A stretch of DNA of 14,016 nt, from assembly GCA_005789685.1 (NCBI GenBank), contig SXXD01000034.1:1-14016 (forward strand), in the 5' to 3' direction. Below, piece after piece: positions 1,911 through 14,016 of the stretch (positions are counted from its first letter, which is position 1; every line of letters starts with the position of its first letter). Position numbers and translations under genes: made by a program. The DNA comes from Burkholderiales bacterium (GTDB lineage Bacteria > Pseudomonadota > Gammaproteobacteria > Burkholderiales > Burkholderiaceae_C). The notes under the pieces are model-generated. The model searched no databases, was not told the DNA's origin, and saw only the letters and a program-made list of their open reading frames with translations.

Positions 1911-2372
1911 TTAGAGATAGATTTTTTGCAAAAGAGTGACCAATGTTTGCGCTTGGTTAGGTGTGAGTTTACCGCCTACATTTCTTTCGAGTTCTGATGC
2001 CGTAGCTTCAGCTTGCACCATGAGTGCTTTGCCCTTTTTAGTCGGATGTAGACCGACGGCGCGACCATCATGGGGGTGGGGCAGACGTTCAACCAAACCC
2101 CGCGAATCTAAAGATTGAATGAGACTGACCAAATTGGGCGGCAAGATGTTCAAAGACGCGCACAGTTGACGCGATGTCACACCAGGGTTGTGAACGATGA
2201 CGGACATGACAGAAAAGTCGACAGGCTTGAGTCCGTAGACCGCCATTCTTTCTAAAAATTCTTCAATGATGGCCAATGCAGCACGACGAGCGTTGTAGCC
2301 TATCAAACTTTCTAAAAAGCGGGTATCAACCTTCTCAATGGCGGTTGAGGTTTGTTTTATGCTGGTTCGCAT
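1911..2372 (-). CDS. MarR-family transcriptional regulator
   Basis: This 153-residue protein has the MarR winged-helix layout: an N-terminal dimerisation helix region, a helix-turn-helix around residues 64-90 (VTSRQLCASLN and LPPNLVSLIQSL), the wing motif DGRAVGLHPTKKG (102-114) with the conserved Asp and Arg, and C-terminal dimerisation helices. It lies 62 bases after the thioesterase on the same strand, at the distal end of the CoA-ligase/hydratase/dehydrogenase cluster. MarR proteins in other p-hydroxycinnamate loci (CouR, FerR, HcaR) are repressors released by the cinnamoyl-CoA thioester. Position suggests the same role here, which is inference. A candidate operator is the inverted repeat at 6417-6431. 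The ATG at 2372 has only a weak purine stretch (GAAAC) before it. Confidence 0.9.
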   Translation of the reverse strand: MRTSIKQTSTAIEKVDTRFLESLIGYNARRAALAIIEEFLERMAVYGLKPVDFSVMSVIVHNPGVTSRQLCASLNILPPNLVSLIQSLDSRGLVERLPHPHDGRAVGLHPTKKGKALMVQAEATASELERNVGGKLTPNQAQTLVTLLQKIYL

Positions 2373-2434: not shown

Positions 2435-2854
2435 TTAACTGCACAAAAGTTTAATGTCTTGGGGGACTGCGATGGCTTTAATGCGATCTGGATCTTCTGG
2501 GTGCTTAATGCAAAAGGCTCGAACCTCAGTGCCTTCGCACAATACGGTGTCGCCGCGCATGACCACATGTTTGTGGACAAAGGTTTTATCACGCCACTCT
2601 TGCACGCTGGTGTGAATTTGAATGGTTTCGCCATAAGTGGCAGTGCGAACAAACTTGGTGTTGATTTCTAGCAAAGGCGTACCAATGATGCCAGTGGTTT
2701 TCACCAACTCTCGCCAAGCTTGAACGCCGCACTTCACGAAGAAATTGAGCGAGGAAGCGTCCATCCACTTCGAAAAATTGGGAAAGAACACGATGCCTGC
2801 GGGATCGCAATCACCGAACATGACTTGCACTTCGTAAACAACTGTTTTGCTCAT
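2435..2854 (-). CDS. 4-hydroxybenzoyl-CoA thioesterase-like hotdog thioesterase
   Basis: This 139-residue single hotdog-fold protein closely resembles, from memory, the Pseudomonas CBS3 4-hydroxybenzoyl-CoA thioesterase. Both share FGDCDPAGIVFFPNF (13-27), containing the catalytic aspartate (D17), then a CG-x2-AWR-type segment (42-48), a GTPLLE-type segment (58-63) and a KTFVHKH strand. It would hydrolyse an aromatic acyl-CoA to the free acid in the cytoplasm. It is 21 bases after the dehydrogenase gene in the same operon, with a GAAAG ribosome-binding site. In this setting it could release 4-hydroxybenzoate or vanillate from the aroyl-CoA, or recover CoA from dead-end thioesters. An aroyl-CoA would need a thiolase, and none is encoded here, so its substrate is uncertain. 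Confidence 0.88.
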   Translation of the reverse strand: MSKTVVYEVQVMFGDCDPAGIVFFPNFSKWMDASSLNFFVKCGVQAWRELVKTTGIIGTPLLEINTKFVRTATYGETIQIHTSVQEWRDKTFVHKHVVMRGDTVLCEGTEVRAFCIKHPEDPDRIKAIAVPQDIKLLCS

Positions 2855-2875
2855 GTGTATCTTTCGAGCAATGGC

Positions 2876-3640
2876 TTAGCGGGGAGCCATGCGCAGTGCG
2901 CCGTCCAAACGAATCACCTCGCCGTTCATGTGACCGTTGCTGACAATGTGAGCTGCCAATTGCGCAAACTCTTCTGGCTTGCCAAGGCGTGAGGGGAAAG
3001 GAATGCTGGCCGCCAAAGAGGCTTGCACAGGCTCGGGTAAAGTTTTTAACAAAGGCGTGGCAAATATGCCGGGTGCAATGGTGCAAACACGAATGCCGTG
3101 TTGTGCCAAATCGCGTGCCATGGGCAAGGTCATGCCCGCCACACCAGCTTTGGAGGCGCTGTAAGCTTGCTGGCCAACTTGACCATCAAAGGCGGCAACG
3201 GAAGCCGTAAAAACCATGGCACCACGTTCGCCGTCTTCCATGGGATCAAGCTTGGCACAAGCTGCAGCAAAAACGCGTGCTGCGTTGTAGGTGCCAATTA
3301 AATTGACATTGACCACCTTGGCAAAGTCTTCCAAAGGTGCAGGGTTGCCATCTTTACCCACAATGCGTTTGGCGGTGCCAATGCCAGCAATTTGCATCAA
3401 GATGCGCGCACCCCCTTGGGCTTTCGCAGCTTCGGCGACAGCATTTTCCATGCTTGCGGCGTTGGTCACATCACAGTGAATGGCAATGCCACCAATGGCT
3501 GATGCCACCTTCTGCGCATTTTCAAGATTCAGGTCGAGCACCGCAACTTTGGCACCCAACCTAGCCAATTCACGGGCGGTCGCTTCGCCCAGCCCAGAGC
3601 CACCACCGGTGACCAATGCGCTCATGCCTTGAATGTTCAT
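2876..3640 (-). CDS. HSD10-like short-chain dehydrogenase (3-hydroxyacyl-CoA dehydrogenase)
   Basis: This 254-residue classical SDR has the NAD-binding TGGGSGLG at 11-18, D36 at the end of beta-2 (favouring NAD over NADP), N113, and the catalytic S147, Y160 and K164. The usual NNAG is changed to QIAG (83-86). From TASVAAF (145) on, it matches human type-10 hydroxysteroid dehydrogenase, a 3-hydroxyacyl-CoA dehydrogenase, very closely, including SASKAGVAGMTLP, PFPSRLG and the GEVIRLDGALRM end. Expected reaction: oxidation of a 3-hydroxy-3-arylpropanoyl-CoA to the 3-oxo thioester. It follows fcs; once the displaced fcs tail (to 3661) is counted the gap is only 20 bases. A GAAAG ribosome-binding site precedes the ATG. 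Acyl-CoA specificity is inferred from similarity and context. Confidence 0.9.
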   Translation of the reverse strand: MNIQGMSALVTGGGSGLGEATARELARLGAKVAVLDLNLENAQKVASAIGGIAIHCDVTNAASMENAVAEAAKAQGGARILMQIAGIGTAKRIVGKDGNPAPLEDFAKVVNVNLIGTYNAARVFAAACAKLDPMEDGERGAMVFTASVAAFDGQVGQQAYSASKAGVAGMTLPMARDLAQHGIRVCTIAPGIFATPLLKTLPEPVQASLAASIPFPSRLGKPEEFAQLAAHIVSNGHMNGEVIRLDGALRMAPR

Positions 3641-3660
3641 GTTTGACTTTCAAAAATAAA

Positions 3661-3774
3661 TTAAAGGGTGGGCTTCAAAATGAAGTGCAATCGATTCTCA
3701 TGCAATGCCGCTACGGTGTCTGCGCGATGAGTCAAAACTGAGCGCTGATTGATGGAGCCCTTGTCTGTAATCTC
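3661..3774 (-). pseudogene. fcs: Out-of-frame C-terminal end of feruloyl-CoA synthase
   Basis: Directly after the in-frame TGA of fcs (3775-3773), the +1 frame reads EITDKGSINQRSV and continues for 37 residues to a TAA at 3661-3663. EITDKG-x-INQR-x-V is, from memory, the conserved end of feruloyl-CoA synthases, and its lysine (residue 585 in the joined protein) sits where the A10 catalytic lysine of adenylating enzymes is expected. Removing one base (the T at minus-strand 3775) joins the frames as DNG-EITDKG and gives a 617-residue protein, close to the family norm. So this stretch is displaced coding sequence and not an intergenic spacer. Cause unknown: base-calling error, real mutation or +1 recoding at GGG-TGA-G. 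Confidence 0.85.
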
Positions 3775-5515
3775 ACCCATTGTCAATGGTGGGTGGCTCA
3801 GACAATAAGCACATGCGCGCAATGCGGTTGGCACTGCCTGTAGCTGTCTTGGTTAGCTCATTGATGAGGTTTTGAAAATGAGCCAAGACGGGTGCGCTGC
3901 TCAGGACATCTGCCAAAGGTGCGTCGGCGGCGAGGCCACTTAACGCTCGCACAGCCGGCGTTGGAAACACCATGGCACCGACTTCTTTCAGATTGATACC
4001 AGTCAGTACCACGTCTTGAACGTAAGGTGCACCTGCTGCAATGATCTTGCCGCGCAATGGCCCCACGCTGACAAAAGTGCCCGTGGCCAATTTGAAATCT
4101 TCTGCAATGCGGCCATCAAATTTGAGGCCTAAATGCACATCGGTTTCGTCAATCCATTTGACGGCGTCGCCTGTGCAGAAGAAGCCTTCGTCGTCAAAGG
4201 CGCCTTTGGTTTCTTCTGCGTTGCGCCAATAACCTGGCGTGATGTTGGGGCCACGATAACGAACTTCGGTTTTGCCACCCATGTCGACCAGTTTGAGCTC
4301 CAAACCAGGTGTGGGGACGCCCAAGTCGCCGGCAGACACATTGGGGTTTGTTACGAAAATACCAAAAGGGCCAGACTCAGTCATGCCAAGGCCTGTGCCC
4401 ATCACAATGCGCTCGCCAATTTCACGCTCTTGCGATTCATACAAGCTGTCCCAAATGGGTTGCGCCAGGGCGGCGCCAGCGTAGAAAAACATTTGCACAC
4501 GTGAGAGCAATGTTTTGCGCAGAAGGTCGTCTGTTTGCATGGCCAAAGCAATGGCTTCAAAGCCAGTGGGCACGTTGAAATAAACGGTGGGGGCAATTTC
4601 CCGCAAATTTCGCAATGTCTCGTGCATGAGGGTGGGCGTAGGCTTGCCATCATCGATGTACAGGGTGCCGCCATGAAACACCACCATGCCAAAGTTGTGG
4701 TTGCCGCCAAAGGTGTGGTTCCAAGGCAACCAATCGACCAAGACCAAGGGCGCTTCAGCCAACACAGGCATGGACTGCATCATTTGTTGTTGGTTGGCGC
4801 ACCACAAACGCTGAGTGTTGATCACGGCTTTGGGCATTTTGGTAGAGCCGCTGGTGAATAAGAATTTCACAATGGTGTCGGGACCCGTTGCGGCAATGGC
4901 GGCGTCTACTTGAGATGTAGCGGGTGTTTGGCACAAGGCTTCGAACGAAGTGACTTGTTGGCCTTCGATGCCGCCCTCGTTCATGACAATTTCCATGTCG
5001 CTGGAAACAGTGGCAGCAATGGCTTTGGCATAACGTGTATCGCTGGCAAACACCATGCCTGGCGTGACCGTGCGCAACACATGTTTCAGTTTGTCGTAGT
5101 CTTGACTAATCAGCGAGTAAGGAGGTGATGTAGGGACGAAAGGGACGCCTGCCACCATGCAGCCCAAAGCCAACAAGGCATGCTCCAAACTGTTCTCGCT
5201 CAATATGACCACGGGTCGTTCTGCATTCAGGCCGCGGTTGATCAAGGCTTGAGCAATGTTGCGCGCTGTGGCCCAGGCTTGCGCATAAGTAACATGGCGC
5301 CAGTCGCCTAATGTGCCATCGGCCAATTTAACGCGGCGCGCAAACAAGGTTTGATTGGGTTTGTTTGTAGCCCAGTGTTGAAAGCGATCTGTGAGCCGAT
5401 CAGGATAGGCTTGCAGTTCTTGATCGGCCTTTAAATAATGCGTGCCAGGTATGCCATCCTTGAGCGTCACGCGAGTGACGCCGAAACGCAGAGGTCTAAA
5501 TTTGGGTGAGCTCAT
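3773..5515 (-). CDS. fcs: Feruloyl-CoA synthase (4-hydroxycinnamate-CoA ligase), frame broken near the C-terminus
   Basis: This ANL-superfamily ligase would activate ferulate, p-coumarate or caffeate with ATP and CoA to the hydroxycinnamoyl-CoA in the cytoplasm. Core motifs in order: P-loop A3 FTSGSTKMPKAV (220-231), A5 GTGLGMTESGP (373-383), A7 FCTGD (446-450) and A8 FDGRIAEDFKLATGTFV (467-482). The GRIAEDFKL form and the N-terminal FRPLRFG are typical of Fcs. The frame as read gives 580 residues and stops at NG-TGA, just before the conserved EITDKG end, which continues in the +1 frame to 3661. The 580-residue product would lack the A10 lysine and should be impaired or inactive for adenylation. 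The ATG at 5515 has a GGAG ribosome-binding site. It is 45 bases after the crotonase gene in the same operon. Confidence 0.9.
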   Translation of the reverse strand: MSSPKFRPLRFGVTRVTLKDGIPGTHYLKADQELQAYPDRLTDRFQHWATNKPNQTLFARRVKLADGTLGDWRHVTYAQAWATARNIAQALINRGLNAERPVVILSENSLEHALLALGCMVAGVPFVPTSPPYSLISQDYDKLKHVLRTVTPGMVFASDTRYAKAIAATVSSDMEIVMNEGGIEGQQVTSFEALCQTPATSQVDAAIAATGPDTIVKFLFTSGSTKMPKAVINTQRLWCANQQQMMQSMPVLAEAPLVLVDWLPWNHTFGGNHNFGMVVFHGGTLYIDDGKPTPTLMHETLRNLREIAPTVYFNVPTGFEAIALAMQTDDLLRKTLLSRVQMFFYAGAALAQPIWDSLYESQEREIGERIVMGTGLGMTESGPFGIFVTNPNVSAGDLGVPTPGLELKLVDMGGKTEVRYRGPNITPGYWRNAEETKGAFDDEGFFCTGDAVKWIDETDVHLGLKFDGRIAEDFKLATGTFVSVGPLRGKIIAAGAPYVQDVVLTGINLKEVGAMVFPTPAVRALSGLAADAPLADVLSSAPVLAHFQNLINELTKTATGSANRIARMCLLSEPPTIDNG

Positions 5516-5560
5516 GTTTGACTCCGAGATGCTGTCTTTGTGAATTTCAAACGTGGGCTT

Positions 5561-6367
5561 TTAGCTCTTTTGAACTTTGGCAGCTTTGCCTTCTAAGAAT
5601 GCCTTGACACGCGCTTTGGCTTCGGGAGCTGCTTGCGCAATAGAAGAGATAAGTGCTTCAGTGAGATAGCCATGATCAGCTGGCTGCTCGGCAATGCGGG
5701 GAAGTGCGTGCATCAAGGCGTAGTTGGTCAAAGGGGCATTGGTGGCAATGCGTTGCGCCAAATCCAATGCTTTTTCCAAAGCTGTGCCTGTTGGCACATG
5801 GTATTGGGCTAAACCAATTCGCTCGCCGTCTAATGCGTTATAGACGCGACCCGTGAGCATCATGTCGGTCATGCGTGCCACACCAATCAATTTGGGAATG
5901 CGAACAGAGCCGCCACCACCCACAAAAATACCGCGTGTGCCTTCAGGCAGGGCATAGAAGGCGCTGTCGTCTGCGACCCGAATGTGGCATGCGCTGGCCA
6001 GTTCTAAACCGCCGCCCACCACCGCACCGTGAAGCGCTGCCACAACTGGAACGCTTCCCAGTTGAATGGCATCCAAAGCCAAGTGCCAACTTCGCGAATG
6101 GAATACACCTTGTCCGGCATCGCGTTCTTTCAATTCAGACAAATCAAGTCCCGCGCAAAAGTGATCGCCTTCGCCATGGACTACCGCAGACTTGGCTGCT
6201 TCGGGTAAGTTTTGAAAGACATCTCGCAAGGCTTCTACCAAACCATCGTTCAGTGCATTGCGTTTAGCAGGACGGCTTAAACGCACCACAGCAACAGCGC
6301 CATTCATTTCAAAGTGAATGCCGTTGGTTTGGGCGCGTTGCAGCAAAGGATGGAGATTTTGAGTCAT
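5561..6367 (-). CDS. Crotonase-family enoyl-CoA hydratase, likely hydroxycinnamoyl-CoA hydratase
   Basis: This 268-residue crotonase has oxyanion-hole segments CAGLDLSEL (71-79) and HGAVVGGGLELA (113-124). Both catalytic glutamates of true hydratases are present, E122 (GGGLELA) and E142 (PEGTRGI), 20 residues apart as in rat mitochondrial hydratase. The feruloyl-CoA hydratase-lyase (HCHL/Ech), which makes vanillin, has Ser at the first position (GGGFSP), so this protein looks like a simple hydratase adding water across the side-chain double bond. It is the first gene of the minus-strand operon, 45 bases before fcs, and faces the divergent amidohydrolase over a shared control region. No ribosome-binding site is visible before the ATG at 6367, and an in-frame TGA four codons upstream rules out an extension. 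The next Met (residue 21) is also unsupported. Lyase activity cannot be excluded by sequence alone. Confidence 0.88.
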   Translation of the reverse strand: MTQNLHPLLQRAQTNGIHFEMNGAVAVVRLSRPAKRNALNDGLVEALRDVFQNLPEAAKSAVVHGEGDHFCAGLDLSELKERDAGQGVFHSRSWHLALDAIQLGSVPVVAALHGAVVGGGLELASACHIRVADDSAFYALPEGTRGIFVGGGGSVRIPKLIGVARMTDMMLTGRVYNALDGERIGLAQYHVPTGTALEKALDLAQRIATNAPLTNYALMHALPRIAEQPADHGYLTEALISSIAQAAPEAKARVKAFLEGKAAKVQKS

Positions 6368-6404
6368 GATGGAGGGTCAATGCGACTTTACAAAAATGCA
6401 AAGT

Positions 6405-6431
6405 TTGATTAAAAACGTTATTATCAATAAC
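6405..6431. promoter_or_regulatory. Inverted repeats in the divergent crotonase/amidohydrolase control region
   Basis: The 126-base gap 6368-6493 is strongly AT-rich. It contains a perfect inverted repeat GTTATT-ATC-AATAAC (6417-6431) and an overlapping TTGAT (6405-6409) with ATCAA (6423-6427). Dyads of this size are typical of MarR-family operators, and the MarR gene lies in the operon controlled from here. No clear -35/-10 pair could be assigned in either direction. Binding is inference. Confidence 0.4.
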
Positions 6432-6493
6432 TATATTGTCTTTCTATGCTGCATTAAAAATCACAGGGTTTTCCCGAATTTCTGAAAGTATTT

Positions 6494-7357
6494 ATGAAAC
6501 ACCAAGACCTGATTGCCATTGACATTCATACGCATGCCGAAGTGAGTTGCTGGAATCCTTTTGACAATTACGGCGAGGAATACGACCGCGCTGCCGACAA
6601 GTTTTTTGGCAGCAATCGGCGCCCTACCATTGATGAAACAGTGGCTTATTACCGCGAACGAAAAATCGGCTTGGTCATGTTCACTGTCGACAGCGAATCA
6701 CAATTAGGCCGCCGCCGCATTCCCAACGAAGAAATTGCCAAAGCTGCGCGAGACAACAGCGACATGATGATTGCCTTTGGCAGCATAGATCCGCACAAAG
6801 GCAAGATGGGTGCGCGTGAAGCCGAGCGCTTGATCAAAGAAGAGGGCATCAAGGGTTTCAAATTTCACCCTACCGTTCAGGGCTACCACCCCTACGACAA
6901 AATGGCCTGGCCCATTTACGAGGTGATCAACGAGCACAAATTGCCCGCCATCTTTCACACGGGTCACAGTGGCATTGGCTCAGGCATGCGCTGTGGTGGC
7001 GGTTTGCGCTTGGCCTACAGCAACCCCATGCACCTAGACGATGTGGCCATCGATTTTCCCGATATGCAAATTGTGATGGCTCACCCCAGTTTCCCATGGC
7101 AAGACGAGGCGCTCAGTGTGGCCACTCACAAGCCCAACGTTTGGATTGATTTGTCGGGTTGGAGCCCCAAGTATTTTCCGAAGCAACTCATTCAGTATGC
7201 CAACACGCTTTTAAAAGATCGCATTTTGTTTGGCAGCGATTACCCCCTCATCACACCTGAGCGGTGGATGAAGGATTTTGAAGTAGCCGGTTTCAAACCC
7301 GAAGTGATGCCCGGTATTCTGAAAGACAACGCGGTGCGTTTGCTTGGCTTGAAATAA
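6494..7357 (+). CDS. Amidohydrolase-superfamily metal-dependent hydrolase, candidate CouO-like beta-ketoacyl-CoA hydrolase
   Basis: This 287-residue TIM-barrel protein of the amidohydrolase-2 type (Pfam Amidohydro_2, the ACMSD family) has the metal motif DIHTH (H12, H14), KFHP (H125), FHTGHSG (H155), AHPSFPW (H197) and GSDYP (D249). All expected ligand positions are filled, so it should be active. In Rhodococcus jostii RHA1 an amidohydrolase-superfamily enzyme, CouO, is reported to replace thiolase plus thioesterase in p-hydroxycinnamate degradation, cleaving the beta-keto intermediate to the aromatic acid. Divergent position beside hydratase, Fcs and dehydrogenase suggests the same role here, but this is inference. 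Alternatives are a decarboxylase or an ordinary hydrolase. A GAAAG site lies 5 bases before the ATG. The gene ends 1 base from the stop of the convergent carboxypeptidase. Confidence 0.85.
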   Translation: MKHQDLIAIDIHTHAEVSCWNPFDNYGEEYDRAADKFFGSNRRPTIDETVAYYRERKIGLVMFTVDSESQLGRRRIPNEEIAKAARDNSDMMIAFGSIDPHKGKMGAREAERLIKEEGIKGFKFHPTVQGYHPYDKMAWPIYEVINEHKLPAIFHTGHSGIGSGMRCGGGLRLAYSNPMHLDDVAIDFPDMQIVMAHPSFPWQDEALSVATHKPNVWIDLSGWSPKYFPKQLIQYANTLLKDRILFGSDYPLITPERWMKDFEVAGFKPEVMPGILKDNAVRLLGLK

Positions 7358-7368
7358 GTTATTTCAAG
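7348..7368. repeat. Perfect 21-bp palindrome formed by two convergent gene ends
   Basis: CTTGAAATAA, a single central G (7358), then TTATTTCAAG: the arms are perfect 10-bp reverse complements. Both the amidohydrolase and the carboxypeptidase end in Leu-Lys-stop written with the same codons (TTG AAA TAA), so the palindrome consists of both terminal codon sets. No GC-rich stem or T-tract follows, so a classical terminator is not supported. Confidence 0.8.
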
Positions 7369-9083
7369 GTCAGTGAGGTTCTGACAGTACCTGCCCTTGC
7401 GGCATGTGCTGTCAGATTGAGCACAGTCCCAGCCGGTGCTTCCACAATCCATTCGTTCAAGGCCCGATCGCCCGTAATTGTTTTGCTGGGCAAGAAAGCT
7501 TGAAGTGAATGAGTGGCTGCATGACCTTCCAACTGTGGACCTTCCATGCGGGGCTTGCCCATCCGAAGGTGTGCACCTTCAGGCAATTCAATTTCGAAAA
7601 TGCAAGGACGTGCCGTCTTTCGTTCAAGGGCGCGTTTTGTGACATAGCTAGGCAGGTAGCCTGCATTGCCAACAGCCATTTGTACGCGCCATTGGCCCTT
7701 GCCTAAATTTTCTGCTTTGGCATGAAGCAGTTCGAGCTTGGGCAGCGTCAATGCAATTTGGTCTAACCAAGCAGGAAAACGTGCCGCTTCGCGTTCACGC
7801 AAATGGGCGGGTGGATTGCGCCAGAAATTCATACGGTCCCATCCGCCTAATTCAATCGCACCTAATTCCGGGTGTTGGTAAGGGTACCAATCGACGTGCG
7901 CTTGGCCGGCGCACACCTCGTCACTCCACTTGAGCAGTTTGACATCGTCTTCGGGCGGATGGTCGCGGTACCAGTGGATCCAATCGTAATCGGTGATGCC
8001 GGCTTCTTTGTTAGGGGCCCAAATTTCAACCGTCCAGAACAAAGCACCCAAATGCTCGTACACCCAATCTTGTGTGCCTGTAATCACTTCTTTGGGGTGG
8101 TATTTGAACTCGTGAAAAATACTGACGGCCGGATAACCGGTGAGCTTGCTGCCAATGTCGGACATGCGCTTGATGATCCACAAATCTTCGGGCGTCATAT
8201 CGGAGTCGCTTTGGGTGCCCATAGGACGCAAAATAACACCTGAGTGGGTGTGGAAGCTGACAGCTGCGCCAATGTTGGGATGCTTGGCAATGAAGTCCAC
8301 CATGGCACGCACTTCGGGCTCGCTGGTGGGGTAGGGTCCGGCGCCCACCTGTTCGTATTCTTGGCGCCAAAAGGCAGGGAAGTTGCGGTTCAAATCCAAA
8401 CCCTCAATGTCGCGATTGGGTTTGATGTTGACGCCGTCGTAATGTTGCAAACTGCCTTCGGGCATCACTCGGTAATACTTTCCACCAAACTCACCCGGCA
8501 AGCGAGGTGTGAGCAGTCTTGGCTCGTCTGGGTTGGCTTTCCAACCGCCATGGGGATCTGGAATTCGCATCATCAAAATGCGACCGTCGCCATCCATGTC
8601 TTCAATGGTCAGGCCTTCAACGTGGGGCTCGTCCCATGGGTAGGGCCGAGTAGAAGATCGAATGTGCCTAGGTTTGTCTGCCAAGGCCAGTTCTGCGCCA
8701 TCTGGATTCAAACGGGGCACCAAGTAAATGACACGCGTGTTGAGCAATTCTGTGACGCCCGCGTCTTCACCGTCTTTGCTTAAAAGATGGTGCAACCAGT
8801 ACAGGCAAGCCGTGCTGGCCGTTAGCTCGGCTGCGTGAATATTACCGTCCACCCAAAATGCGGGCTTGTCTGTGTCTGCACCGGTTGACTTGCGAGTGAG
8901 AACAAGCACCCAAATGGGGCGATTTTCATGGCTTGTGCCTAACTCTCGAAGCTCTACCAATTCAGGCCTTGCCGCTGCAAAAGCTTGCAGCAATTCTGTC
9001 AGTTCTTGATGTTTGTAGAAGCGATCAAAGGCGGGCAGGGGAAGCGGCACCTGATTTTTCTTGATGTTAGAAGCTGTTGCCAT
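7359..9083 (-). CDS. M14-family zinc carboxypeptidase, cytoplasmic
   Basis: This 574-residue protein has an M14 metallocarboxypeptidase domain in about residues 20-370. Zinc ligands are H83 and E86 (NIHAAE) and H278 (SFHTHSG). The general-base Glu is E353 in WTVEIWAP, matching E270 of carboxypeptidase A. NPDG (126-129) and LNRNFP (231-236) are also family motifs. The C-terminal ~175 residues look beta-rich and may be an accessory domain. No signal peptide is visible, unlike secreted M14 enzymes, so it should act on peptides or amino-acid conjugates inside the cell. The ATG at 9083 has no ribosome-binding site (the leader is CT-rich), so the start is uncertain, but no better one was found. It is convergent with the amidohydrolase and divergent from the acyl-CoA synthetase; no functional link to either is evident. 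Confidence 0.88.
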   Translation of the reverse strand: MATASNIKKNQVPLPLPAFDRFYKHQELTELLQAFAAARPELVELRELGTSHENRPIWVLVLTRKSTGADTDKPAFWVDGNIHAAELTASTACLYWLHHLLSKDGEDAGVTELLNTRVIYLVPRLNPDGAELALADKPRHIRSSTRPYPWDEPHVEGLTIEDMDGDGRILMMRIPDPHGGWKANPDEPRLLTPRLPGEFGGKYYRVMPEGSLQHYDGVNIKPNRDIEGLDLNRNFPAFWRQEYEQVGAGPYPTSEPEVRAMVDFIAKHPNIGAAVSFHTHSGVILRPMGTQSDSDMTPEDLWIIKRMSDIGSKLTGYPAVSIFHEFKYHPKEVITGTQDWVYEHLGALFWTVEIWAPNKEAGITDYDWIHWYRDHPPEDDVKLLKWSDEVCAGQAHVDWYPYQHPELGAIELGGWDRMNFWRNPPAHLREREAARFPAWLDQIALTLPKLELLHAKAENLGKGQWRVQMAVGNAGYLPSYVTKRALERKTARPCIFEIELPEGAHLRMGKPRMEGPQLEGHAATHSLQAFLPSKTITGDRALNEWIVEAPAGTVLNLTAHAARAGTVRTSLTLK

Positions 9084-9330
9084 GGTGAAGTGAGTGTGAA
9101 TGCTTGAAGAGGCTCAGCATACCAAGGCTTTGCTTGGAATGAAAAGAGTTTGCGCACTTTTTATCCAATGAACTTGGGAGGGCCTTATCAGGGAAATTCC
9201 TAGGGAATGAGTCTCGAAGAGGACTGGGAATAGGTTCAATTCTCTTCACAATTCGTCATCCCTTTAAATCATCGATCGATTCTTGAGATTTTTCTATTCA
9301 AGGGTCAATTTCAACCCACGAAAGTTTGGC
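9084..9330. promoter_or_regulatory. Divergent intergenic region between carboxypeptidase and acyl-CoA synthetase
   Basis: A 247-base gap that must hold promoters for both divergent genes. Visible structures are ATTCC-TAG-GGAAT (9196-9208), the perfect palindrome ATCGATCGAT (9271-9280), and CTTGA...TCAAG arms (9282-9302) just before the synthetase start. I could not assign a convincing -35/-10 pair, and I see no small gene or RNA. Confidence 0.35.
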
Positions 9331-11010
9331 ATGTCAAAACCTGCATTAATTCTTGAGAATGTTCTGGCGCACGAGAAAAACCGCCCTGATTTTGTGTACA
9401 TGACGCAGCCCATAGGCAATGGTCAGGTTGTAGATTACACATGGCGCGAAACCCTCAAGCAAGCGCGATCCATGGCCGCTTACATCAAAGCTCAAAACCT
9501 TGAGCCAGGTGCCCGGGTGGCCATTCTTTCCAAGAATTGCGCACACTTCATCATGGCTGAACTGGCCATTTGGATGTCAGGCTGCACCACAGTGGCCATT
9601 TTTCCAACCGAGTTGGGCGAGACCGTTCGCTACGTTCTGGATCACAGCGAAGCCAGTTTGCTGTTTGTCGGAAAATTGGACACATGGCCCGAACAAGCGC
9701 CCTCTGTGCCGACCTCTTTACCTTGCATTGCATTCCCTTTGGCGCCTGCCAATCAATTTGCAAAGTGGGATGACATCGTTGCAAAAACAGCGCCCTTGCA
9801 AGGTGACATAGCGCGGGCACCTCAAGATTTGGCCATGATCATGTACACCTCTGGCTCAACAGGTCAGCCCAAAGGTGTGATGCACAATTTTGAGCGAATC
9901 TCCAAAACTGCGGAACTGATATGCCAATCTATTTTGGACAGTGCAGGTGATCTGAAAGATTCCCGCATCTTGTCTTATCTGCCCCTGGCTCACGTTTTTG
10001 AGCGTGCTTGGGTTGAAGTTGCCAGTTTGACTTATGGCGAGACGCATGTATTTTTTGCAGAATCTTTGGACACATTCATCCAAGACTTAAACCGTGCACG
10101 GCCCACGTTCTTCATTTCTGTACCCCGCTTGTGGCTTAAGTTTCAGCAAGGTGTTTTCAGCAAGATGCCGCCAGCCAAGTTGGATTTGTTGCTGAGCATC
10201 CCTATTGTCAAAGGCTTGGTTAAAAAGAAAATTCTCAAAGGCCTCGGCTTGGATCAAGTGGTGTCCGCGGGCAGTGGTTCTGCGCCCCTGCCAGCAGAAC
10301 TCATCGTCTGGTATCGCAAGCTAGGTTTGAACCTCTTAGAGGGCTACGGCATGACGGAGGATTTTGCTTGGTCACACAACTGCACCAATGAGATCAATGA
10401 GCCAGGCAGCGTGGGCATACCCGCGAATGGCGTTCAAGCTCGTATCAGCCCTGAAGGCGAAATTCAGTTGAAATCACCAGGACAAATGGTGGGTTATTAC
10501 AAACGCCCTGATTTAGATGCGGAGGCTTTTACAGAAGATGGCTTTTTCAAAACGGGTGATCAAGGCCAACAGCGAGCGGATGGTCTGTTGAAAATTACCG
10601 GACGCTTGAAGGAGATTTTCAAAACCTCCAAAGGTAAGTATGTTGCGCCAGCCCCCATTGAGAACAAACTCAATGTGCACCCCATGATTGAGATGAGCAT
10701 CGTCTCAGGCGTGTCCCAGTCGGCTGCTTATGCCATGGTGGTGCTGGCAGAGGATATTCGTCCGAAAGTCAAAGACGCTGAAGTAAGGGCTCAAGTAGAA
10801 CAACAACTCAGCGAGTTCTTGACCAAAGTGAATTCAGAGTTGGCAGACTATGAAAAGCTGCGCATGCTGGTCATTGCCAGTGAGGCCTGGTCGATTGAAA
10901 ACGGTTACCTCACGCCCACCATGAAAATCAAACGCAGTCGCATTGAATCGTCTGTTGAAAGCCAAGTGCCTGCTTGGTATGAAAAGTCTGGCAGTGTGTT
11001 TTGGGCTTGA
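9331..11010 (+). CDS. Long-chain-fatty-acid-type AMP-forming acyl-CoA synthetase
   Basis: With the ATG at 9331 (MSKPALILEN) the protein has 559 residues; an in-frame TTG at 9283 would add 16 residues that look non-native. ANL motifs are complete: P-loop YTSGSTGQPKGV (172-183), YGMTE (339-343), KTGD (407-410), GRLKEIFKTSKGKYVAP (424-440) and the C-terminal LTPTMKIKR (527-535) with the catalytic-lysine region. GRLKEIFKTSKGKYVAP and LTPTxKxKR are typical of FACS/FadD-like ligases for medium- to long-chain or hydrophobic acids, not of Fcs. It makes acyl-CoA from acid, ATP and CoA. An AMP-binding enzyme separate from Fcs suggests another acid substrate. The downstream flavoprotein starts 3 bases after its stop, implying co-translation. 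A GAAAG stretch lies 7 bases before the ATG. Confidence 0.9.
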   Translation: MSKPALILENVLAHEKNRPDFVYMTQPIGNGQVVDYTWRETLKQARSMAAYIKAQNLEPGARVAILSKNCAHFIMAELAIWMSGCTTVAIFPTELGETVRYVLDHSEASLLFVGKLDTWPEQAPSVPTSLPCIAFPLAPANQFAKWDDIVAKTAPLQGDIARAPQDLAMIMYTSGSTGQPKGVMHNFERISKTAELICQSILDSAGDLKDSRILSYLPLAHVFERAWVEVASLTYGETHVFFAESLDTFIQDLNRARPTFFISVPRLWLKFQQGVFSKMPPAKLDLLLSIPIVKGLVKKKILKGLGLDQVVSAGSGSAPLPAELIVWYRKLGLNLLEGYGMTEDFAWSHNCTNEINEPGSVGIPANGVQARISPEGEIQLKSPGQMVGYYKRPDLDAEAFTEDGFFKTGDQGQQRADGLLKITGRLKEIFKTSKGKYVAPAPIENKLNVHPMIEMSIVSGVSQSAAYAMVVLAEDIRPKVKDAEVRAQVEQQLSEFLTKVNSELADYEKLRMLVIASEAWSIENGYLTPTMKIKRSRIESSVESQVPAWYEKSGSVFWA

Positions 11011-11013
11011 TGG

Positions 11014-11973
11014 ATGGATCACTCAATATCAAACACACACACAAACAGAGTCTTGGCGCACACCGGCGCCAAGTACCCAATCTTGCAAGCCCCCATGGGC
11101 TGGATCGCGCGAACGCAACTGGCCTCTGCCGTATCTAGGGCTGGCGGCCTTGGCATCATTGAAACGTCTTCGGGTGAAACCGAAAATTGCCAAGCCGAAA
11201 TTAGAAAGATGCGCGAATTGAATTTGCCATTTGGTGTCAATTTGCCCATTCGGTTTTTAAAAGACGATGCAATGCTGAAGTTTGTCTGTGCATCGGGCGT
11301 GAAATTTGTCACCACATCCGCTGGCAGCCCCGCTAAATTTGTTCAACCCCTAAAGAGTGCGGGCATTACCGTTTACCACGCTGTACCCACAGTAGATGCG
11401 GCCATGAAGTGTGTTGACGCTGGCATTGATGGCCTTGTCGTTGAAGGATCTGAAGGAGGTGGCTTTAAAAACCCCGAAGACGTTTCAACGCTGGTACTTT
11501 TGCAAGCGATTCGTGCCAAGGTCGATGTCCCCCTGATTGCCGCGGGTGGTATTTGCGATGGCAGAGGCATGGCTGCAGCCTTTGCGCTGGGCGCCGAAGC
11601 CATTCAAATGGGAACGCGTTTTGTCAGTTGTGCAGAAAGCCCTGTTCACGACAACTTTAAAAATGCCATCGTCAGCTCCAAAGAAACGGGCACTTGGATG
11701 TTGAACACCAAATCAACACCTTGTATTCGCGCCCTTAAATCGGAGCGAACCAGTGTCATTCACGAGCAAGGCATCATGTCATTTGATGACATGAAAGGTA
11801 TTTTGAATGTTTACTTCAAAGGTGACATGGAAGCCGCGCCTGCATTGGCAGGGCAGTCGGCTGGCTTAATTGATTCAGTGAAAACCGCCAAAGACATCAT
11901 TGAAGATACCGTGGCGGAGTTTTTTGAAATCAGTGCCCGCATGGGGGCCAAGGCGCAAAGTCAAAGCTTTTAA
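11014..11973 (+). CDS. Nitronate monooxygenase / 2-nitropropane-dioxygenase-like FMN protein
   Basis: This 319-residue FMN TIM-barrel protein has QAPMGW (25-30) near the N-terminus, an AGGLG segment (43-47) and the phosphate-binding AAGGICDGRGMAAAFALGAEAIQMGTRF region (177-203). The usual EAGGH segment with the catalytic histidine of nitronate monooxygenases and FabK reads EGGGF here (147-151), so that His is Phe151. True nitronate oxidation is therefore doubtful; an NAD(P)H-dependent flavin oxidoreductase or enoyl reductase role is possible. The ATG at 11014 is 3 bases after the synthetase stop, with no strong ribosome-binding site of its own, which fits translational coupling. The stop overlaps the convergent FAA-hydrolase-family gene's stop by 4 bases. 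The coupling suggests it acts on the CoA ester made by the synthetase, which is inference. Confidence 0.85.
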   Translation: MDHSISNTHTNRVLAHTGAKYPILQAPMGWIARTQLASAVSRAGGLGIIETSSGETENCQAEIRKMRELNLPFGVNLPIRFLKDDAMLKFVCASGVKFVTTSAGSPAKFVQPLKSAGITVYHAVPTVDAAMKCVDAGIDGLVVEGSEGGGFKNPEDVSTLVLLQAIRAKVDVPLIAAGGICDGRGMAAAFALGAEAIQMGTRFVSCAESPVHDNFKNAIVSSKETGTWMLNTKSTPCIRALKSERTSVIHEQGIMSFDDMKGILNVYFKGDMEAAPALAGQSAGLIDSVKTAKDIIEDTVAEFFEISARMGAKAQSQSF

Positions 11974-12833
11974 ACAGTGGTGGCTAGGTCGTCTTTGATG
12001 GTGTTGCGCAAAATGCCAACGGCATCGACTTCAATTTCAACCACATCACCGGGCTTCATGAAAACCTGAGGTGTGCGTTTGTTGCCTACGCCGCCGGGCG
12101 TGCCACTCACAATGACATCGCCAGGTTCAAGCGGAATGAAGGTAGAGATGTAGGCAATTTGACGTGGGATGCTGTGAATCATCATGTCGGTTGTGGCACG
12201 TTGCAACTCAACACCATTCAAGCGCGTGCTCAGTGTCAAAGTTTGGCCAGGTTTGATTTCATCAGCAGTCACCATCCAAGGCCCAAAGCCACCCGTGCGC
12301 CAGAAATTTTTACCAGCCGTCCACTGGGTGGTGAAATTTTGCCAATCGCGCACCGAGCCATCGTTGTAGCAAGAGTAGCCGGCAATGTGCTTCCAAGCAT
12401 CAGCTTCCGAAATACGGCGACCACCTTCACCAATGATGATGGCAATTTCACCTTCGTAGTCAAGGCGATGCGACTCAGGTGGACGCATGATGTCTTGGCC
12501 ATGCCCTACTTGCGAAGAATTGACACGTGAAAAAATAGCTGGCTTTTCAGTCAGTTCTCGGCCTGTTTCTTTCACGTGATCGTGGTAGTTCAAACCCACA
12601 CACATGATTTTTTCTGGATTGGGAATGACGGGCAAGAGCGACAAGTCTTCGAAAATCAAGTCTGGTGTGTTTTTGCTCAATGCGTCAGCCGCTTGTGCGA
12701 GCATCTTTTTGGCAATCAGGGTTTTTAGATCAGGTGCTTGCGCGCCCAAAATAGGGGTGAGGTTTAAAACTTTGTTGCCATGCACTGCGCCATAGCATGC
12801 GGTGTTGTTAAGCAAGAAGCTAATGAGTCTCAT
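11970..12833 (-). CDS. FAA-hydrolase-family enzyme (2-hydroxyhepta-2,4-diene-1,7-dioate isomerase/hydrolase-like)
   Basis: This 287-residue, short-form FAA-hydrolase-superfamily protein has an N-terminal 70-residue cap followed by the catalytic domain with IMCVGLNYHDH (76-86), metal ligands E127 and E129 in DYEGE, D158 in YNDGSVRD, K175 in GKNFWRTGGFGPW, and SGTPGGVG (243-250). Such enzymes hydrolyse or tautomerise C-C bonds of 2-oxo/beta-dicarbonyl acids late in aromatic ring-cleavage pathways; some act as oxaloacetate decarboxylase or acylpyruvase. The exact substrate is not readable. It is 35 bases after the nitroreductase gene on the same strand, with a GAAAGA site before the ATG, so the two form an operon divergent from vanA. 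Its stop overlaps the convergent flavoprotein stop by 4 bases. Confidence 0.9.
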   Translation of the reverse strand: MRLISFLLNNTACYGAVHGNKVLNLTPILGAQAPDLKTLIAKKMLAQAADALSKNTPDLIFEDLSLLPVIPNPEKIMCVGLNYHDHVKETGRELTEKPAIFSRVNSSQVGHGQDIMRPPESHRLDYEGEIAIIIGEGGRRISEADAWKHIAGYSCYNDGSVRDWQNFTTQWTAGKNFWRTGGFGPWMVTADEIKPGQTLTLSTRLNGVELQRATTDMMIHSIPRQIAYISTFIPLEPGDVIVSGTPGGVGNKRTPQVFMKPGDVVEIEVDAVGILRNTIKDDLATTV

Positions 12834-12868
12834 GGTGATTCTTTCAAGAAAAAAAGATGTTGGTTGAC

Positions 12869-13471
12869 TTAAAAAGAACCGCGTTTGGCCAATGTCGTCA
12901 GTGGCTTGCGCGCATTGGGCGATTCTCTTTCGCGCAATGCATCGGGCAATGTGGCAGCATCACCGCGTTTGCCAACCGTGGCCAACATTTGCAAGGTGTG
13001 ATCTGCTGGTAGGCCTAAGACTTGAGCGCCGGCCACTTTGTCAAAGCCACCAATGCCGTGCAATGAGAAGCCATTCAGGTGCGCTTGCATGGCCATGTAG
13101 GCCCATGCAGCACCGGTGTCGAAGGCGTGCATGCCATTAGGTGCCATGTCTGGCGAGCCTGCTTTGGCTGCCAATTGGTAGGAAGCAATGGCTACCAAAG
13201 CACCTGCATTGCCAGCCCATGCTTGGTTGTTAGGATTGAGTGTGGCAAACAAGGCATCCCATTGTGGGTCGTTGCGCAGCACAACTGCAAAACGCCAGGG
13301 CTGTGCGTTGTTGGACGAGGGAGCCCACCGAGCGGCTTCTAGCATGCTCATGACATCGGCTTCGGATACGACTTCACCCGTGTAAGCACGAGGTGACCAA
13401 CGCTCTGTAAATTGCGGGTCGATGGGGAAGTCTGCCTTGCGGGTGTTGGTCACGGGTGAGGGTTGGCTCAT
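12869..13471 (-). CDS. Nitroreductase-family flavoprotein
   Basis: With the ATG at 13471 (MSQPSPVTN) the protein has 200 residues. This start has an AGGAAA ribosome-binding site 7 bases upstream; an in-frame TTG at 13501 would add 10 residues and has no such support. Nitroreductase features: RWSPRAY (24-30), APSSNNAQPW (50-59) and HGIGGFD (138-144), which line the FMN site. The family uses NAD(P)H to reduce nitroaromatics, quinones or enones, usually as a homodimer; the physiological substrate is unknown. It is divergent from vanA with 152 bases between the starts, and the FAA-hydrolase-family gene follows at 35 bases. The RNA for it probably starts within this shared region, where AAGCA and TGCTT arms (13496-13511) flank CAATATTG-like sequence. 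Confidence 0.9.
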   Translation of the reverse strand: MSQPSPVTNTRKADFPIDPQFTERWSPRAYTGEVVSEADVMSMLEAARWAPSSNNAQPWRFAVVLRNDPQWDALFATLNPNNQAWAGNAGALVAIASYQLAAKAGSPDMAPNGMHAFDTGAAWAYMAMQAHLNGFSLHGIGGFDKVAGAQVLGLPADHTLQMLATVGKRGDAATLPDALRERESPNARKPLTTLAKRGSF

Positions 13472-13495
13472 GAAACTATTTCCTACGGATGATAA

Positions 13496-13511
13496 AAGCA
13501 ATATTGTGCTT
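13496..13511. promoter_or_regulatory. Inverted repeat upstream of the nitroreductase gene
   Basis: AAGCA (13496-13500) and TGCTT (13507-13511) are perfect reverse complements around ATATTG. The dyad starts 25 bases before the nitroreductase ATG, a place suited to a repressor or leader element. Function is inferred from position only. Confidence 0.3.
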
Positions 13512-13623: not shown

Positions 13624-14016
13624 ATGTTTCTAAAAAATGAATGGTATGTTGCCTGTCGTGTTGACGAAATCACAGACAAACCTTTTGGTCGGAAAATTTG
13701 CAATGAGGCCATGGTCTTTTTCAGGGGGCCTGAAAATGCTTTGTCGGCGGTCGAAGACTTTTGCCCCCACCGCGGTGCACCTTTGTCATTGGGCCGAGTT
13801 TGCAACGGGCAATTGGTCTGTGGCTATCACGGCCTCACCATGGGATGCGATGGTCACACTGTGAGCATGTCAGGTCACAATGTTCGTGGATTTGAGCCCG
13901 TCAAAAGTTTTCCGGTCATTGAGCGCTATGGATTTGTATGGGTTTGGCCGGGTGATGCTTCCAAAGCAGATCCCAACAAAATGCCTGTTTTTGAATGGTT
14001 TGAAAATCCAGCTTGG
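13624..14016 (+). CDS. vanA: Vanillate O-demethylase, Rieske oxygenase subunit (VanA), N-terminal part
   Basis: The first 131 codons are visible; the gene runs off the right edge. The N-terminus MFLKNEWYVAC matches VanA proteins. The Rieske [2Fe-2S] ligands are C47 and H49 in CPHRGAPLS and C66 and H69 in CGYHGL, with GFVWVWPG (103-110) following as in vanillate demethylases. With its reductase VanB, the enzyme removes the methyl group of vanillate to give protocatechuate and formaldehyde. The ATG at 13624 has an excellent AAAGGAGAT site 3 bases upstream. A 19-bp dyad (13591-13609) just upstream is a likely control site. VanA is the expected next step after ferulate side-chain removal encoded near 2.4-7.4 kb. 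Related Rieske demethylases for other methoxybenzoates cannot be fully excluded from a partial sequence. Confidence 0.9.
   Translation, partial: MFLKNEWYVACRVDEITDKPFGRKICNEAMVFFRGPENALSAVEDFCPHRGAPLSLGRVCNGQLVCGYHGLTMGCDGHTVSMSGHNVRGFEPVKSFPVIERYGFVWVWPGDASKADPNKMPVFEWFENPAW

Follow-up and report, generated by a model that had tools for sequence, protein, structure and literature searches.

The window analysed here is a stretch of 14,016 nucleotides (contig SXXD01000034.1, assembly GCA_005789685.1) from a metagenome-assembled genome (MAG) of the Burkholderiales, and it carries a gene cluster that very probably encodes the CoA-dependent, beta-oxidative deacetylation of 4-hydroxycinnamates. 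The cluster is comprised of genes for a MarR-family regulator, a thioesterase, a short-chain dehydrogenase/reductase (SDR), a feruloyl-CoA synthetase (Fcs) and a crotonase on one strand, and for an amidohydrolase on the other. A route like that of Rhodococcus jostii RHA1 had been proposed for it in a preliminary description of this DNA, and is well supported by the complete enzyme set, the two-Glu crotonase and the CouR-like MarR protein. The locus represents a known pathway in a betaproteobacterial form and is nearly universal in its genus, which we infer to be Limnohabitans; its thioesterase may be an accessory.

In the proposed mechanism, whose reactions, substrates and regulation are all deduced from sequence, Fcs would make the CoA ester of the hydroxycinnamate, the crotonase would add water to this ester, and the SDR would oxidise the resulting beta-hydroxyl. 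The divergent amidohydrolase would then hydrolyse the aryl-keto C-C bond to give a benzoate (vanillate or 4-hydroxybenzoate) and acetyl-CoA, so that an aldehyde would not be formed. The MarR protein would repress from an inverted repeat between the crotonase gene (ech) and the amidohydrolase gene, and would be released by hydroxycinnamoyl-CoA. The thioesterase would be an accessory enzyme, which frees acid and CoA either from thiolase-made aroyl-CoA, as in the relatives, or from stalled CoA esters. The features are as follows.

1911..2372, minus strand: MarR-family regulator, CouR-like (best solved relative 6c28)
2435..2854, minus strand: 4HBT-type acyl-CoA thioesterase (best solved relative 1bvq)
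2876..3640, minus strand: HSD10-like short-chain 3-hydroxyacyl-CoA dehydrogenase, the SDR (best solved relatives)
3641..3772, no strand: spacer of 132 bp; 1.4-2.1 kb with a thiolase gene in 55 other loci of the genus
3773..5515, minus strand: feruloyl-CoA synthetase, Fcs (PRK12582, below cut-off)
5561..6367, minus strand: two-Glu crotonase, a proposed hydroxycinnamoyl-CoA hydratase and not a lyase (PRK08150; both Glu motifs)
6417..6431, no strand: inverted repeat GTTATT-ATC-AATAAC, proposed MarR/CouR-type operator common to ech and the amidohydrolase gene
6494..7357, plus strand: amidohydrolase, CouO/HpeF-type aryl-beta-ketopropionyl-CoA hydrolase, proposed C-C cleaving step (PF04909; relatives beside fcs)
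13624..14016, plus strand: VanA-like Rieske oxygenase gene, of which the contig end leaves the 5' part; may encode a vanillate O-demethylase

The six open reading frames of the cluster had been described before, and their coordinates and families are all confirmed (Pfam bit scores: Amidohydro_2 172, AMP-binding 166, adh_short 146, ECH_1 144, MarR_2 50 and 4HBT_2 45). The window had also been said to lack a vanillin dehydrogenase and a thiolase; tblastn searches with both find none in it, and neither does a tblastn search of the window for a hydratase-lyase. The same gene grouping recurs in many other genomes and is thus more than chance.

The crotonase scores 407 bits against PRK08150 (NF006013; cut-off 232), and its best solved relative is 3hin. 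Its motifs GGGLELAS and ALPEGTRG contain a Glu each. Loss of the first Glu is the mark of a lyase. An annotated hydratase/lyase on an Acinetobacter indicus plasmid (locus L061), with a score of 504 bits against PRK09120, is 27% identical to the crotonase of the window, and its first motif contains Ser-Pro. PRK09120 (NF006588) is not among the best 25 of the 72 families listed, and a search of the MAG at E 1e-50 gives no match to it. The crotonase is therefore proposed to be a hydratase without the lyase signature. Fcs is 38-47% identical to plasmid proteins annotated as feruloyl-CoA synthase, among the matches listed. The closest solved relatives of the SDR are 3-hydroxyacyl-CoA dehydrogenases, HSD10 included, and the SDR encoded next to fcs in Rhizobium sp. 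Q54 shares 59% identity with it.

In the amidohydrolase, residues H12, H14, H155, H197 and D249, which we take to be the metal ligands, are invariant in all 13 aligned sequences. The protein is 58-60% identical to relatives encoded beside fcs in Rhizobium Q54 and Terrarubrum. The Rhizobium relative (58%) is annotated as a 4-hydroxyphenyl-beta-ketoacyl-CoA hydrolase, and its gene directly follows that of a MarR protein in the company of ech, fcs and an SDR gene. On a Pseudomonas putida plasmid the gene of a closer relative (73%) comes after those for a biotin-dependent carboxylase and a HAD hydrolase, a layout similar to that of the Hpe operon as far as the latter's description goes. A third context is provided by 80 loci (1.41 Mb; 56 of them at least 15 kb long, some on cut contigs), which are not a random sample because all were picked for amidohydrolase similarity. 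Above the set identity limits, Fcs is found in 71 of these, the crotonase in 68, the SDR in 46, the thioesterase in 15 and the thiolase in 12 (11 of the 12 with the thioesterase); a vanillin dehydrogenase is found in three and a hydratase-lyase in one. In eight loci the SDR, Fcs, crotonase, thioesterase and thiolase are all missing from view. The three contexts point to one amidohydrolase reaction.

Such a reaction is described or proposed for two systems. CouO of RHA1, a member of the amidohydrolase superfamily, catalyses the last deacetylation step to the aromatic acid, and CouR responds to p-coumaroyl-CoA, according to the part of the report available (PMC4737184). The RHA1 cluster (CouL, CouN, CouO, CouR) resembles the window by description in this last step; it is, however, actinobacterial, and a thioesterase is not mentioned for it in that part of the source. 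HpeF of the acetovanillone pathway shares 95% identity with CouO; its proposed activity, in the portion consulted, is on hydroxyphenyl-beta-ketopropionyl-CoA with release of acetyl-CoA (PMC9618137). The Hpe pathway thus shares a CouO homologue with the window, and the P. putida relative lies in an operon of similar layout, but as described it starts from hydroxyphenylethanones via carboxylation and not from hydroxycinnamates.

The nearest proteobacterial precedent by description is the SpG8-1b region of Agrobacterium fabrum, with a ligase, hydratase, dehydrogenase, C-C cleaving enzyme and MarR repressor. There Atu1416, Atu1417, Atu1415 and Atu1421 act in that order to give vanillate under the repressor HcaR, as outlined in the accessible part of PMC7797058. 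In comparison with that outline, the window differs by the presence of a thioesterase, by its gene order and by a nearby Rieske gene in place of a tetrahydrofolate-type demethylase gene. A plasmid cluster of Rhizobium Q54 with the A. fabrum gene set encodes four enzymes 44-59% identical to those of the window and a MarR protein 34% identical. The preliminary description had assumed that most described proteobacteria use the lyase route. This holds for the betaproteobacterium Paraburkholderia AR20-38, which takes that route for ferulate according to its transcriptome, as far as the partial text shows (PMC9701309), whereas A. fabrum is a beta-oxidative precedent, so that the locus is less unusual than had been claimed. 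Both routes are compared in one review (PMC10458429), and thiolase-type endings are described in another (PMC13406360), each consulted in part. Among the papers listed in searches of open-access literature, no report of this locus was seen, nor a paper pairing Limnohabitans with ferulate terms.

The regulator has as its best solved relative 6c28, named CouR (65 bits; the next scores 37), while the RHA1 CouR chains 3fm5 and 5cyv score 30 bits. The window has a single site of the proposed operator form, the repeat GTTATTATCAATAAC at 6417-6431 in the intergenic region of ech and the amidohydrolase gene; it is read on both strands, and 0.03 matches are expected. The pattern GTTATN5ATAAC occurs 67 times in 79 loci fetched from the genus (1.10 Mb), in all cases upstream of ech (67 of the 74 readable loci). 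It occurs 39 times in the 80-locus set, each time near the start of ech, the amidohydrolase gene or Fcs, and there it accompanies 36 of the 67 readable ech genes and is missing from the other 31. The conserved repeat is likely an operator, by prediction from these patterns, to which the MarR protein would bind.

The assignment to Limnohabitans rests on a scan of named genome contigs with the amidohydrolase alignment, in which the closest matches are Comamonadaceae MAGs and Limnohabitans (95-99% protein identity) and Hydrogenophaga (95%). The MAG behind the window measures 1.8 Mb in 299 contigs and is estimated to be 73% complete and 1.4% contaminated. The genus was compared through 90 genomes. 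Fcs (E 1e-100 or better) is present in 86 (many of these are incomplete MAGs, and 55 were counted as good), a thiolase of the type found in the cluster (E 1e-85 or better, identity at least 87%) in 68, and the amidohydrolase (identity at least 92%) in 56. The last count leaves out G307 and G313, which have 30% relatives only, and G274, which has two end pieces. The four genomes without Fcs (G284, G298, G327 and G331) are also without amidohydrolase and thiolase; G298, G327 and G331 are 74-85% complete. Both C-C cleaving enzymes occur in 40 of the 86 genomes with Fcs, the thiolase only in 28, the amidohydrolase only in 16 and neither in two, G324 (74% complete) and G274 (97% complete). In the 55 good genomes with Fcs the corresponding numbers are 28, 18, 8 and 1. 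Short weak matches that adjoin ech in G252 and G256 may be decayed pieces of the amidohydrolase gene.

The thiolase loci usually run from MarR through acyl-CoA dehydrogenase, in many cases a solute-binding protein, thioesterase, SDR, thiolase and Fcs to the crotonase, and the amidohydrolase gene, where present, is divergent. The spacer between the SDR and Fcs matches is 133-332 bp in 15 thiolase-free loci (136 in the window) versus 1.4-2.1 kb in 55 thiolase loci. Relocation of the thiolase elsewhere in the genome was considered and rejected: whole-genome searches of ten genomes without it in the locus, of which four are 93-97% complete, did not find the cluster-type enzyme, and the best matches there are at most 43% identical, versus 96-100% in three thiolase-bearing controls.

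A tree of 76 Fcs genes requires at least six changes for the thiolase and at least eight for the amidohydrolase; the presence of both has thus changed repeatedly. Ten of the 86 genomes with Fcs are absent from this tree, seven because their loci were unfetched (G275, G276, G297, G307, G312, G324 and G333) and three with a partial Fcs (G279, G303 and G322). Losses and gains are indistinguishable in these counts, and the fitted gain rates are not small. For avoidance of joint absence, the Fisher P is 0.024 with all 86 genomes and 0.14 with the set restricted to the good 55. No significance is reached with independent pairs on the tree, and tree simulations give P values of 0.03, 0.10, 0.12 or 0.16, depending on the conditioning. 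These values hint that the thiolase and the amidohydrolase cover for each other as interchangeable C-C cleaving enzymes, a suggestion that is unproven. A fuller version, to which we give somewhat less than even credence, is that the Limnohabitans locus has two interchangeable C-C cleaving enzymes that were repeatedly lost or exchanged, and that the lineage of the window is without the thiolase and acyl-CoA dehydrogenase and kept the thioesterase with a thiolase-independent function. It is lowered because the changes on the tree are not readable as losses only. What seems to be new here is the comparison within one genus, in which the enzyme that cuts the C-C bond varies between close relatives.

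The idea of two equal endings is also weakened by the acyl-CoA dehydrogenase gene, which is present in 24 of 25 thiolase loci and in two of ten thiolase-free loci in which the MarR and thioesterase genes are both visible (Fisher P 1.6e-5), although on the tree (34 rows) the two genes change four times each and their link has no significance. At the end of the Pseudomonas fluorescens ech operon, according to the transposon data in the available part of PMC12642758, an acyl-CoA dehydrogenase and a thiolase matter for phloretate and not for p-coumarate, and single deletion of the thiolase has a limited effect. By analogy, the thiolase/acyl-CoA dehydrogenase pair absent from the window may have served saturated arylpropanoates. 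The same two observations favour a broader alternative, in which ferulate and p-coumarate are not the main substrates and the locus acts on other aryl-CoA compounds, for instance those from dihydroferulate, phloretate or further arylpropanoates. This alternative is unlikely, since the window locus is without the acyl-CoA dehydrogenase gene, its regulator is nearest to CouR, and a VanA-like Rieske gene lies at the window edge. The 5' part of the latter is 66% identical over 131 amino acids to the Rieske protein of an Acinetobacter ferulate cluster, and it would be a member of the pathway.

The thioesterase resembles, over its full length, the 4-hydroxybenzoyl-CoA thioesterase 1bvq (133 bits), its best solved relative, and keeps the key Asp where chain 1lo9 has Asn; the window's enzyme stands in a hydroxycinnamate locus. 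It had been offered earlier as an option for the last step of the pathway. This part of the description has to be dropped: a thioesterase does not cut C-C bonds, and in the relatives it is paired with a thiolase. For the same reasons the thioesterase is ruled out as the sole last step. It is ruled out as a dead relic, too, by its retention in all 69 readable loci among the 79 fetched, 15 of them thiolase-free, and by a median dN/dS that is 0.040 in the thiolase-free group (32 pairs) and 0.019 in a thiolase group, with dS near saturation. The SDR (0.026 versus 0.014) and Fcs (0.057 versus 0.035) show the same weaker constraint in the thiolase-free group. Because it is kept under a low dN/dS, the thioesterase probably has a use that is independent of the cluster-type thiolase. 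By analogy its likeliest role would be to free CoA from aroyl-CoA or stalled esters, and a CoA-releasing role has been suggested for a thioesterase in benzoate pathways, in the part of PMC6449761 consulted. Its substrate is not readable from the family, because its relatives on other replicons are found among genes of other pathways. In Caballeronia and Paraburkholderia, thioesterase relatives of 51-54% identity (L057:3838-9198 and L059:3791-9204) neighbour a 3-hydroxyacyl-CoA dehydrogenase and a 3-keto-5-aminohexanoate cleavage protein, a gene set that is presumably carnitine-type.

These properties of the thioesterase bear on a thiolytic ending, in which an unlinked thiolase would form aroyl-CoA and acetyl-CoA, the thioesterase would release the benzoate and the amidohydrolase would be secondary. 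The pairing of thioesterase and thiolase in the 80-locus set fits this ending, as do the likeness to 4-hydroxybenzoyl-CoA thioesterase, the constrained retention in all 15 readable thiolase-free loci and three other thiolases in the MAG, 35-42% identical to the cluster type. A similar sequence, p-coumarate beta-oxidation to 4-hydroxybenzoyl-CoA followed by a thioesterase step, has been proposed from the genome of Comamonas serinivorans SP-35, as far as the accessible text tells (PMC6307125). However, the cluster-type thiolase is missing from the ten genomes searched whole, the amidohydrolase is kept in 16 of the 18 thiolase-free genomes with Fcs, and 65 of the 80 amidohydrolase loci are without a thioesterase in the visible stretch. 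We consider the thiolytic ending quite improbable.

Against the hydrolytic, beta-oxidative pathway preferred here stand several points. Fcs reaches 654 bits with PRK12582 (NF009232), short of the cut-off of 777. The A. fabrum enzyme Atu1421, whose place in the sequence of steps corresponds to C-C cleavage, is termed a beta-keto-thiolase in the part of PMC7797058 seen. Of the 86 genomes with Fcs, 30 have a broken amidohydrolase or none, so that this enzyme is not indispensable where the thiolase is present. G274, although 97% complete and in possession of Fcs, has neither the thiolase nor an intact amidohydrolase: in-frame internal deletion has removed 208 of the 287 codons of the gene and left 79 (L191:11450-11689), while Fcs, crotonase, SDR and thioesterase are kept. 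A short repeat suspected at this deletion was not confirmed in the window and is not claimed. Finally, an unlinked lyase, vanillin dehydrogenase or thiolase is possible, because the MAG is incomplete.

The classical route shares Fcs, a crotonase and a MarR regulator with the window (as in L061), but its lyase makes an aldehyde and leaves a 3-hydroxyacyl-CoA dehydrogenase and a C-C hydrolase unneeded; Fcs and a lyase would form vanillin, an unlinked dehydrogenase would oxidise it, and the SDR and amidohydrolase would serve otherwise. In spite of its use by Paraburkholderia AR20-38, nine aldehyde dehydrogenase matches in the MAG, a hydratase-lyase over the cut-off in two near relatives (G335 and G336) and two loci in which a hydratase-lyase and a vanillin dehydrogenase lie with an amidohydrolase relative (L037:4623-9870 and L188:6002-10858, where both routes may coexist), this route is rejected as the least probable of all on the family of the crotonase (PRK08150, not PRK09120) and its first motif, while 88 of the 90 genomes are without a hydratase-lyase over the cut-off and the best matches in the 73% complete MAG are only 31% identical to the L061 lyase and 32%, the nearest of seven, to the vanillin dehydrogenase of a cluster.

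If the beta-oxidative pathway is correct, freshwater Limnohabitans would turn plant hydroxycinnamates into benzoates with no aldehyde on the way, and natural strains with either or both C-C cleaving enzymes would be available in the genus. The interchangeability of the CouO-type hydrolase and the thiolase, and the purpose of the accessory thioesterase, would become directly testable, and aldehyde-free enzyme sets would be added for the conversion of lignin aromatics.

Relatives of the amidohydrolase also occur in other settings. On the P. putida YC-AE1 plasmid (L036:1274-9864) the relative is last in an operon with an acetoacetate-CoA-ligase-type gene, the biotin-carboxylase genes and the HAD hydrolase, and on a Rhodococcus opacus plasmid a 54% relative lies among other genes. 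A Saprospiraceae MAG has SDR, crotonase, Fcs and amidohydrolase in a single same-strand run (L186:6354-10849), which points either to spread beyond the Proteobacteria or to an error in binning. An assembly of the water lily Victoria cruziana contains a protein (P0004) that shares 93% identity with the amidohydrolase and is most likely bacterial contamination. In Rhizobium Q54, the plasmid that carries the hydroxycinnamate cluster (L038:9919-18873) has genes for a TRAP transporter and a CRISPR-Cas locus of type I-C next to it.

In the window itself, the amidohydrolase gene is followed at 7359-13501 by genes for an M14 carboxypeptidase, a long-chain acyl-CoA synthetase, a FabK-like protein, a second FAH-family protein and a nitroreductase. 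Their order is not seen in the more distant loci of the genus and is largely kept in the loci nearest the window.

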